Part shown: piece after piece, positions 33,733 through 37,120 of the stretch
Position numbering within the stretch: the stretch's first letter is position 1
How the letters are laid out: each line of letters begins with the position of its first letter
NCBI GenBank assembly: GCA_020347605.1
Contig: CP070734.1
Span: forward strand, 3,235,703-3,273,202
Direction of reading: 5' to 3'
DNA length: 37,500 nucleotides
Source of the DNA: Deltaproteobacteria bacterium
GTDB lineage: Bacteria > Myxococcota_A > UBA9160 > G020347605
Made by a program: the position numbers and the translations under genes
Notes under the pieces: model-generated
What the model was told of the DNA's origin: nothing
What the model saw: only the letters and a program-made list of their open reading frames with translations
Databases searched by the model: none

Positions 33733-34974
33733 CTACGCCTCCGGGGGCGGGCTCGCCGTCGGCGAACCGGCCGGGACGAGCTCGATCGTGGCGATCTCGC
33801 GCGAACAGTTGAAGCGGATCGCCGGGCCGGCGAAGCCGAAGCCGCGGTTCACGTAGAGCGTGGAGCCGTTCACGCGGTACAGACCGCGGTGAAAGGGTGT
33901 GACGAGCCGCGCAAGGTTGAAGTTGCCGCCGGGGATGGGAAGCGCGAGCTGACCCCCGTGCGTGTGGCCGGACAGGACCAGCTGGAAGCCCAGCTTCGAC
34001 GCCTGGTGAAACGCCTCGGGCCGGTGCACGAGGAGCACCGTCGGCCCGTCGTCCGGGCAGCTCGCCGCCACGTCGTTCAGCGCGTCGAGCTCGAGCCCGC
34101 GCGCCGCCCAGTCGACGCCCGGGTCGTCCACGCCCGCGAGGTAGAGCGGAAAGTCGACCGGTACGCGCACCACGTCCTTGCGCAGCAGGCGCAGGTTGGG
34201 CGCCCACTCGCCGAACGCCGCGGCCACGGTCTCGGTCCCCGTATAGGTGTCGTGGTTGCCGAGCACGGCGTACGTCCCGTAGCGGGCGCGCAGACGGCCG
34301 AGCCGCGACATCCCGTCGGGCACGAAGCTCGGATCGTTGTCGAAGATGTCCCCGGTGAGGACGATCAGATCGGGCGCGTGCGCGTTGACGTCGTCGACGA
34401 GCCGCCCGAGCGCCTCACCCTGCAGGCGGTTGCCGATATGGAGATCGGAGATCTGCACGATGCGCAGACCGCGGCCGCCGTCGTGCAGGCCCTCGACCTC
34501 GACCCGCACGTGGGTGCGCTCGACGCGCGACTTCCCGACCGTGAACCCCCAGGCGATCATGAAGCCGAGCGAAGCCACCACGGTCGCGCTCGCGATGCGG
34601 AACACCTCGAAGGCCAGCTCGGAGCTCACTCCGGCCACGGTGAGGAGCTGCGCCAGCGGATACAGGCCGATCCACGAGCCGAGGATCGCGACGCCGACCA
34701 GCAGCGTGGCGACGCCGACCGCCATGTAGGCCCGCGCCACCCAGCGCGCGGCGCCGCGCGAACGGGCGGCGCGCCGCAGGATCGGCACCAGCAGGCCGTT
34801 GGCGAGGGTGAGCAGCGCCGCGAGCAGCAGGCCCAGCGCCAGGCCGGGTCCCTCGCGCCCCGCGACGACCACCGTGACCCAGTGGCCGAGGACGACCTGC
34901 ATCACACCCAGCGCGTAGCCGAGCGTGGTGAAGATCTGTCCGAAGATGATCGGGCGCAGCAGCCGCTGGAGCAT
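33733..34974 (-). CDS. Membrane metallophosphoesterase
   Basis: 413 residues. The N-terminal 150 residues contain four to five membrane helices. The calcineurin-like domain follows: DLH at 177-179 (ISDLHIGN), GDIFD at 208-212, GNHD at 239-242, His in LVHRPE, and GHTHGG near residue 315. All metal ligands are present. The layout (membrane helices plus phosphoesterase) is that of YkuE/YaeI-type proteins, some of which act on lipid-linked substrates. The active domain probably faces the cytoplasm or periplasm; orientation is unclear. The ATG has GGGAGA 11 bases upstream, and TAGACT about 55 bases before it. Confidence 0.9.
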   Translation of the reverse strand: MLQRLLRPIIFGQIFTTLGYALGVMQVVLGHWVTVVVAGREGPGLALGLLLAALLTLANGLLVPILRRAARSRGAARWVARAYMAVGVATLLVGVAILGSWIGLYPLAQLLTVAGVSSELAFEVFRIASATVVASLGFMIAWGFTVGKSRVERTHVRVEVEGLHDGGRGLRIVQISDLHIGNRLQGEALGRLVDDVNAHAPDLIVLTGDIFDNDPSFVPDGMSRLGRLRARYGTYAVLGNHDTYTGTETVAAAFGEWAPNLRLLRKDVVRVPVDFPLYLAGVDDPGVDWAARGLELDALNDVAASCPDDGPTVLLVHRPEAFHQASKLGFQLVLSGHTHGGQLALPIPGGNFNLARLVTPFHRGLYRVNGSTLYVNRGFGFAGPAIRFNCSREIATIELVPAGSPTASPPPEA

Positions 34975-35183: not shown

Positions 35184-36212
35184 CTAGAAGCGGTCGGAGG
35201 GCCAGAAGACGAAGCGCTCGGGCGGCAGGATCCGGCGCAGGACATCGCCCGCTGCGTCGGCGCCCCGGGCCGACGCGCCCAGGCGGCGCGCCAGTGCGGG
35301 GGCGTCGAGACAGCGCAGCATGGCGCCCGGGTCCTCGAGGCGCACCCCTGCGATGCCGCGCGCGTCGAGCGCGCGGGCGAGCTCCGGATCCTCGACCCAG
35401 CAGCCGGTGGCGAGGCTGCGAAACGCGGCCGAGGTCTTCCCCTGCGGAGCGAAGGCGTCGGGCGTGCGCGGCGTCATGACGTGGGCCACGACGTCGGCGA
35501 GCGCGTCACTCGCGTCCGGTGCGCGCCCGAACTCGAGCAGGAACAAGACGCCGTAGAGCATCGTCGCCCGCGCATAGGCGCAGACCCGACCGGCGCGGCG
35601 CGCGACCCAGAACTCCTCGTCGGGATTGCCCGCCAGCCGCAGGCTCGTCTGCCACGCCGCCGCGTCGCGGACGACGGTCCCGTCGAGCCCTCCGGAGTAG
35701 GCGGCGTGGAGCGCCGACACCGCCTCGAGGTGCCGCTCCGGCTCGAAGGCCTCGACCGCGGCGCGCGGCGCGGCGGTGCCCCGCGCCGTGTCGAGGCGGT
35801 AGACCGCGCGCGTGCCCCACGAGTGCCAGCCGAGGCGGGCGTAGAGCTCGATCGGCCCGGCGAACAGCAGCGAGAGCTGCATGCCGCGCTCGCGCATCGC
35901 CGCGATCGCCCGCTCGAGCAGCGCGCGCGACACCCCGCGACCGCGCCGCTCGGGCTTCGTGAACACCGTGCCGATGCCGCCCAGCCGGACCTCGGCGCCC
36001 GCGATCCGCACCTCGCGCGGAAAGACCTGGACGCAACCGATCATCCGACCCGCGTCCTCGGCCACGAGCACGTTCTCGTCCGCGAAGCGCGCGTCGAGCT
36101 CGAGATAGCGTCGAAAGAAGTCGCGCCCACGCCAGCCGTCCGCCAGCTCCCAGCCGTCGAGCAGGTCGAGGAGCGGCTCGCGTTCGGCGGCGCGCAGCGT
36201 GCGGAGTTTCAT
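35184..36212 (-). CDS. GNAT-family N-acetyltransferase
   Basis: 342 residues. The GNAT core has GGIGTVFTKPERRGRGVSRALLERAI, containing the R/Q-x-x-G-x-G/A acetyl-CoA loop (RRGRGV), then MQLSLLFAGPIELYARLGW. The size and the LLFAGPIELYARLGWH stretch resemble Eis-like GNATs, though shorter at the C-terminus. Substrates of that group are amines, including aminoglycosides; none can be assigned here. A TATACT -10-like hexamer on the minus strand ends 9 bases before the ATG, and there is no Shine-Dalgarno, so the mRNA should have almost no leader. Confidence 0.87.
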   Translation of the reverse strand: MKLRTLRAAEREPLLDLLDGWELADGWRGRDFFRRYLELDARFADENVLVAEDAGRMIGCVQVFPREVRIAGAEVRLGGIGTVFTKPERRGRGVSRALLERAIAAMRERGMQLSLLFAGPIELYARLGWHSWGTRAVYRLDTARGTAAPRAAVEAFEPERHLEAVSALHAAYSGGLDGTVVRDAAAWQTSLRLAGNPDEEFWVARRAGRVCAYARATMLYGVLFLLEFGRAPDASDALADVVAHVMTPRTPDAFAPQGKTSAAFRSLATGCWVEDPELARALDARGIAGVRLEDPGAMLRCLDAPALARRLGASARGADAAGDVLRRILPPERFVFWPSDRF

Positions 36213-36221
36213 GCGGACCGC

Positions 36222-36229
36222 AGTATACT
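36222..36229. promoter_or_regulatory. Palindromic bidirectional -10 AGTATACT (GNAT/TPR divergent promoter)
   Basis: AGTATACT gives TATACT at 36224-36229 on the plus strand and at 36227-36222 on the minus strand. The plus -10 ends 6 bases before the TPR ATG (36236), and the minus -10 ends 9 bases before the GNAT ATG (36212). Neither gene has a Shine-Dalgarno. The whole divergent spacer is only 23 bases, so nothing else can be the promoter unless it lies inside the genes. Confidence 0.55.
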
Positions 36230-36235
36230 CGCCGG

Positions 36236-36568
36236 ATGGCGGACGCTCGGGCGCTCTACCGGGAGGGGTTCGAACACTTCACGAACCAGCGCTTCGATGC
36301 GGCGGCCGAGCGCTATCGCAGGGCGCTCGAGGCGGATCCGGAGCTCGGGATCGCCTGGAACGCGCTCGCCATGGCGCTCGACCGCACGGGCGACGTCGAC
36401 GGCGCGATCGAGGCGATCGAGCGGTACATCGAGCTCGACCCGGACGATCCGCTCGGCCACACGAGCCTGTCGATCTTCTTCCAGAAGAAGGGCATGATCC
36501 GCGAGGCCGAGGACGAGAAGGCGCTGGCCACCCGTCTCCAGACGAAGCAGCAGACCGGAACGCCCTGA
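36236..36568 (+). CDS. Small TPR protein
   Basis: 110 residues, nearly all tetratricopeptide repeats: RALYREGFEHFTNQRFDAAAERYRRALEADPE, then GIAWNALAMALDRTGDVDGAIEAIERYIELDPDD, then a partial third repeat LGHTSLSIFFQKKGMIREAEDEKA. Such proteins are adaptors. No partner can be named from the context: it sits between a divergent GNAT and a convergent peroxiredoxin. It has no signal peptide and no Shine-Dalgarno; the ATG follows a TATACT by 6 bases. Confidence 0.85.
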   Translation: MADARALYREGFEHFTNQRFDAAAERYRRALEADPELGIAWNALAMALDRTGDVDGAIEAIERYIELDPDDPLGHTSLSIFFQKKGMIREAEDEKALATRLQTKQQTGTP

Positions 36569-36576
36569 TCGCGTCC

Positions 36577-37098
36577 TCAGCTTCCGGCCGCGATCCGGGC
36601 GGCCTCGACGACGGCTTCGTAGTCCGGCTCCTCGGTCAGCTCCTTCACGTACTGGACGTGCACGATCCGGTCGTTTCGATCCACGACGAACACGGCGCGC
36701 GCGTCGAGTCGCAGCTCCTCGACGTGCGTCCCGTACGCGTTCCCGAACGACATCCCGCGGTGGTCGGACAGGCACTGCAGATGCTCCACCCCGTTGGCCG
36801 TGCACCAGCGCGCCGCCGCAAACGGCAGATCGGCGGAGACCGTGTAGACCGCGACCTCGTCGCCGAGCTCGTCGGCGTACTCGTCGAAGCGCCGGGTCTG
36901 GGTGTCGCAGACGGGGGTGTCCAGGCTCGGCACGACGCTGAAGACGCGGACCTTCCCCTTCGACGCGGCGAGCGTGACGGGCTCGAGGCGGGTGTTCAGC
37001 ACTTCGAAGTCGGGCGCCGGCACGCCCGTCTCGAGCTCGGGCCCGAGCAGCGTCAGCGGATTGCCGCCCATCGTGACGGCTTCCTTCCTCTGGTTCAT
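36577..37098 (-). CDS. tpx: Thiol peroxidase (Tpx-type atypical 2-Cys peroxiredoxin)
   Basis: 173 residues. The peroxidatic cysteine is Cys64 in SLDTPVCDTQTRRF, with Thr61 in the T-x-x-C motif, and the resolving cysteine is Cys99 in AARWCTANG, as in the Tpx branch. The start VTLAASKGKVRVFSVVPSLDTPVC is typical. It reduces hydrogen peroxide and lipid peroxides in the cytoplasm or periplasm; no signal peptide is visible. A very strong AGGAGG precedes the ATG. A 7-bp inverted repeat followed by five Ts on the minus strand lies immediately upstream of the ribosome site (37121-37142), suggesting regulation of this gene. Confidence 0.93.
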   Translation of the reverse strand: MNQRKEAVTMGGNPLTLLGPELETGVPAPDFEVLNTRLEPVTLAASKGKVRVFSVVPSLDTPVCDTQTRRFDEYADELGDEVAVYTVSADLPFAAARWCTANGVEHLQCLSDHRGMSFGNAYGTHVEELRLDARAVFVVDRNDRIVHVQYVKELTEEPDYEAVVEAARIAAGS

Positions 37099-37120
37099 GG
37101 GGGCTCCTCCTGAGCAAAAA

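Follow-up and report, generated by a model that had tools for sequence, protein, structure and literature searches.

A putative two-way promoter between the GNAT and TPR genes

The 8-base palindrome AGTATACT, lying between divergent genes for a GNAT acetyltransferase and a TPR-repeat protein, is most probably a symmetric core promoter in which two overlapping −10 elements serve both directions; from the sequence comparisons below we put the probability of this reading at roughly 0.87. The site belongs to a 37,500-nt stretch of DNA (the window) and is as the preliminary description had drawn it, with a TATACT on each strand inside the short spacer that separates the two ATGs (Table 1). The start codons are 24 bp apart, and the gap from TATACT to ATG is 6 nt on the TPR side (+ strand) and 9 nt on the GNAT side (− strand). 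Each ATG is the earliest possible start past the preceding in-frame stop, which rules out a more upstream start for either gene. The absence of a ribosome site from both genes, also claimed earlier, was confirmed: there is no Shine-Dalgarno sequence between the −10 and the ATG on either side, where only CGCCGG and GCGGTCCGC are present. A scan of 36000–36500 found no sigma-70-type −35/−10 pair.

Table 1 Features of the GNAT/TPR site (positions in the window)
Feature	Position	Strand	Basis
AGTATACT palindrome	36222..36229	.	Two overlapping −10 hexamers with common core TATA; column conservation, shuffles
TATACT, predicted −10 of TPR gene	36224..36229	+	Geometry; genome TANNNT peak; retention in TPR-alone relatives
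TATACT, predicted −10 of GNAT gene	36222..36227	−	Geometry; AGTATA retained in four GNAT-alone relatives
Spacer, 23 nt, whole intergenic region of GNAT and TPR genes	36213..36235	.	
TPR-repeat protein, 110 aa	36236..36568	+	Pfam TPR_2 E=2e-14, TPR_16 E=3.5e-13
GNAT acetyltransferase, 342 aa	35184..36212	−	Pfam Acetyltransf_9 E=2.4e-23

The spacing was compared with a background sample made up of the window and 20 other genomic stretches of 20 kb each, 437.5 kb in all. TANNNT occurred 6 nt before 16 starts, versus about 3 at neighbouring distances, and smaller excesses were seen at 7 and 9 nt. An excess of this kind is the mark of leaderless genes described from other bacteria, delta-proteobacteria among them (PMC3160421). 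The first T of TATACT is located 12 bp upstream of the TPR start and 15 bp upstream of the GNAT start, the 6-nt gap of the former being the genome-wide peak.

In the mechanism that we infer, RNA polymerase, presumably with the housekeeping sigma factor, would bind AGTATACT in either orientation: read rightward, TATACT would be the −10 of the TPR gene, and read leftward, TATACT would be the −10 of the GNAT gene. Sharing TATA, the two hexamers would place the melting A residues (−11) of the two directions on neighbouring base pairs, one on each strand. If −7 is taken as the position of the last T of the −10, the TPR transcript is predicted to begin at the A of its ATG (36236) and the GNAT transcript at about 36215–36214 with a leader of 2–3 nt; by the usual −10-to-start distance, the divergent starts would then lie ~21 bp from each other. 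The mRNAs of both genes would have no leader, or almost none, and could be translated without a ribosome site. The earlier proposal that both genes start where transcription starts may thus hold for TPR; for GNAT it has to be relaxed, as an 8–9-nt gap makes this gene, by its predicted geometry, only nearly leaderless. We likewise infer the strength of the promoter and any regulatory coupling beyond the common site, and the GNAT and TPR genes might be either co-expressed or antagonistic.

Several other genes surround the pair in the window. A peroxiredoxin/thiol-peroxidase-like ORF adjoins it (36577–37099, − strand; judged from the translation only), an O-methyltransferase gene (PF01596) runs from 37223 onward on the + strand, and a metallophosphoesterase-type gene (33733–34974, PF00149) is found just past GNAT.

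Conservation and half-specific decay in orthologous loci

Related MAGs, with predicted start codons, were used as comparison genomes. The tight set consisted of 16 genomes from six families of the order in which GNAT and TPR are divergent and closely spaced, their proteins being ~43–68% identical to those of the window. The preliminary description had named conservation of the palindrome and of the spacing as a check on its proposal, and both were found together with the gene order: AGTATACT was exact in 15/16 loci, and the spacer was 22–23 nt in 15/16 and 27 nt in one (G076). The TPR gap was 6 nt in 15/16 and the GNAT gap 8–9 nt in all 16. Over these loci the eight palindrome columns carried 1.66–2.00 bits of information, compared with 0.44–1.33 bits in the neighbouring spacer columns. 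Loss of the palindrome with gene order kept, the outcome that had been named as contrary, was encountered mainly where one start had moved away; the closest case within the tight set, and its sole non-exact locus, is G040, whose ACTATACT still offers TATACT in one direction and TATAGT in the opposite one.

Where one gene has been lost or has moved, the two halves behave separately. Four relatives with GNAT only read AGTATAGT, AGTATAGA, AGTATATA and AGTATACG, and the GNAT-serving TATACT was retained in all four. In ten relatives TPR has no divergent start close by; there TATACT, or a sequence little different from it, precedes TPR, and the full palindrome was seen in 0/10. When the GNAT start is 28–40 nt away, as in family f6, the site becomes GGTATACT or GCTATACT. 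There are exceptions. The largest group is genus g34, in which the GNAT −10 is kept and the TPR leader is longer, with a possible ribosome site (GAGGAG/AAGGAG) in some genomes, and AGTATACT is still present in 4/8 genomes. Four TPR loci without GNAT also contain AGTATACT (G048, G060, G029 and G037). In G048, GNAT is gone from the TPR side, and the start 7 nt from the kept palindrome belongs to a metallophosphoesterase-type gene; the kinship of this gene to the one at 33733–34974 of the window was recognised by inspection of the sequences, and the locus (L033/L093) suggests an apparent exchange of partners at a retained palindrome. In G060 (L015), of the same genus, GNAT is missing and no clear start was seen, and a related frame seems, by inspection, to follow. 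A different divergent ORF starts 13 nt from AGTATACT in G037, and a similar one may start at ~28 nt in G029 (by inspection). In G013/G035 another divergent ORF is close to a non-palindromic TATACT.

The same genome contains a second divergent AGTATACT, between genes for a CysQ-like phosphatase (PF00459) and a dienelactone hydrolase (PF01738), with gaps of 8 and 7 nt. The palindrome was found in 14/14 tight loci of this pair from seven families, with spacers of 22–24 nt. When the hydrolase was far (52–93 nt) or absent, the CysQ half was kept and the other half changed, giving AGTATAGG or AGTATACC (G013, G020, G005, G026, G030, G007 and G015); two loose loci, G049 and G055, retained the whole palindrome as exceptions.

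Loci were grouped as tight or loose by hand from their printed contexts. With both pairs pooled, the exact palindrome was present in 29/30 tight versus 2/26 loose loci (Fisher p = 1.8e-12, kinship ignored), and in 12/42 when all ambiguous or differently built loci were counted as loose (Fisher p = 1.6e-9, kinship again ignored). At least five changes between full and half palindrome for GNAT, and at least four for CysQ, are required by well-supported branches of the protein trees, so that a number of independent events underlie the association of palindrome with tight spacing. Loci with a single gene or a wider spacing retain one half selectively, with exceptions, and we take this as an evolutionary proxy for each half serving its own gene. 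The comparisons suggest a rule in which a half tends to persist only as long as its gene starts directly next to it, loose loci that keep the palindrome being the exceptions.

Rarity and recurrence of the palindrome

Dinucleotide shuffling of the window, repeated 100 times, gave no AGTATACT, and the 3.67-Mb genome has three copies. The form ANTATANT-N5-10-RTG is present at only two places in the genome, the GNAT/TPR and CysQ-like/hydrolase pairs, and at each of them it leads to a start codon in both directions. The third copy (L001:1496-1513; G000 C1:750572) forms part of CTGCAAGTATACTTGCAG, a perfect palindrome of 18 bp within what looks like a coding region, an ORF with a signal-peptide-like beginning, and is possibly a regulator site.

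Across 80 genomes of the order, 192 AGTATACT sites were found. RTG lay within 4–10 nt of 156/384 AGTATACT sides, compared with 101/746 for the reversed control TCATATGA. At least 43 sites among the matches listed had RTG on both sides, whereas the squared control rate would give 3–4. Further both-sided pairs with Pfam matches were MFS transporter/SMP-30, ketopantoate reductase/SDR, DegT aminotransferase/PIG-L deacetylase and nitroreductase/AMP-binding enzyme. The both-strand sites L129-L133 and L138 in relatives, where at least one flank has no long ORF, look like chance and were set aside; some both-sided sites without long ORFs in AT-richer genomes are probably chance as well. The L079 pair, its frame truncated on one side, was left off the firm list. 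In the phylum outside the order, both-strand sites were sporadic and scattered. In family f6 (L082, L084, L085 and L086), AGTATACT without a clear divergent partner is placed 8 nt before a conserved, leaderless-looking gene.

A broader reading, to which we would give even odds, is that AGTATACT is a reusable and selected two-gene start module of this uncultured Myxococcota-type order. The module would be an 8-bp dyad at a fixed 6–9 nt from two starts. It would contain both core promoters and, with both mRNAs leaderless, nothing more could be fitted in ahead of translation start. It would have originated, or taken on new partners, at a number of unrelated gene pairs, and the orientation of RNA polymerase on it may keep the two genes in balance.

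Alternative explanations

The perfect dyad between divergent genes could also be an operator, bound by a dimeric transcription factor that regulates the two, with its likeness to −10 elements secondary. The longer palindrome GCGCGAGTATACTCGCGC in one orthologue (G022) and the 18-bp palindrome around the third genomic copy agree with an operator, but conservation at the GNAT/TPR site ends sharply at 8 bp, and the same 8-mer recurs at a fixed distance from the starts of many unrelated genes. Moreover, single-gene loci retain only the −10 half of the remaining gene, whereas an operator should stay symmetric; on this half-specific decay the operator was rejected, and we consider it quite improbable. 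Marginally less probable still is that only one gene uses the −10, the other being transcribed from within the coding region of its neighbour and the symmetry being due to chance. The TATACT-type −10 that stands alone before TPR in several relatives speaks for such an arrangement; the AG half, however, is fixed in tight loci of both pairs (15/16 and 14/14) and tends to disappear from loci whose divergent gene is distant or missing, and the same rule operates at two unrelated gene pairs.

The palindrome might likewise have been kept by descent, without selection, in a spacer that is short and changes slowly, since all the orthologues go back to one arrangement that is common to many loci. At the low protein identities given above, however, an unselected spacer should have drifted, as its flanking columns did. 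The column conservation of the palindrome contradicts ancestry alone and the half-specific changes recur on the trees, which leaves this the least credible of the three, to be entertained only at very long odds. The symmetric core promoter therefore remains our preferred reading.

Relation to known promoters

Bidirectional promoters with symmetric −10 elements are already known in bacteria, as the preliminary description had stated; they often drive mRNAs, and their starts are 7–25 bp apart, 18 being the commonest distance and 10 and 23 also common (PMC10268837, PMC12825309). The GNAT/TPR site would work like these promoters of the Warman/Grainger class, in which one near-symmetric −10 is read by RNA polymerase both ways, and it shares their sequence-level features. 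It differs from them in its perfect palindrome with a shared TATA, in predicted starts ~21 rather than 18 bp apart, in two products that are both predicted to be leaderless or nearly so, and in its conservation across families with half-specific decay. The earlier suggestion of mutually exclusive RNAs, with the expression of the two genes locked together, found no support. RNA polymerase could occupy the site in only one orientation at a time, but basal firing of five tested E. coli bidirectional promoters was too rare for the directions to compete, and competition appeared only once one direction was activated (PMC12825309).

Leaderless genes, which PMC12825309 does not mention, are the other known element. 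They lack a ribosome site, carry a −10-like TANNNT ~12 bp before the start, and were predicted in 8/33 delta-proteobacterial genomes, where they average 15.8% of genes (PMC3160421, PMC12340547). The GNAT/TPR site resembles such TA-led genes in its TANNNT adjoining a start without a Shine-Dalgarno sequence; unlike it, the promoters treated in those two works are one-directional, and the words divergent and bidirectional are absent from both. Closely juxtaposed divergent promoters, including the leaderless prpD/Rv1129c, are described from M. tuberculosis, where they are −10-dominated and have no −35 consensus (PMC3898074, in the part available to us). Our site is similar in having divergent genes with (here predicted) leaderless mRNAs and a −10 without a −35, and different in that the same part of that report states no shared palindromic −10. 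Our search of the open literature, most subscription journals lying outside it, found no description of leaderless bidirectional promoters of this kind. What is new is the combination of a perfect palindromic −10, two (nearly) leaderless mRNAs, compactness within 23 nt, re-use, and an evolutionary test half by half.

Within 23 bp, transcription start, translation start and two genes would all meet. Relatives in which one gene is lost or moved amount to an evolutionary experiment on the bases that each direction needs, and the half-specific pattern gives independent support to the view that symmetric −10s can be selected for two mRNAs, beyond leaky promoters. Exact start sites can be predicted in this way for any sequenced relative.

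In the 437.5-kb sample scanned for divergent leaderless pairs, overlapping −10s occurred only at the GNAT/TPR site, and one further pair had separate −10s. The latter, leaderless-looking on both sides (L145:7660-7730; G000 C1, near 467,700), reads TAGACT and TAGAAT, both set in the 13-bp inverted repeat TCTACAGCGCGCC...GGCGCGCTGTAGA, and its two promoters would therefore have upstream sequence in common.
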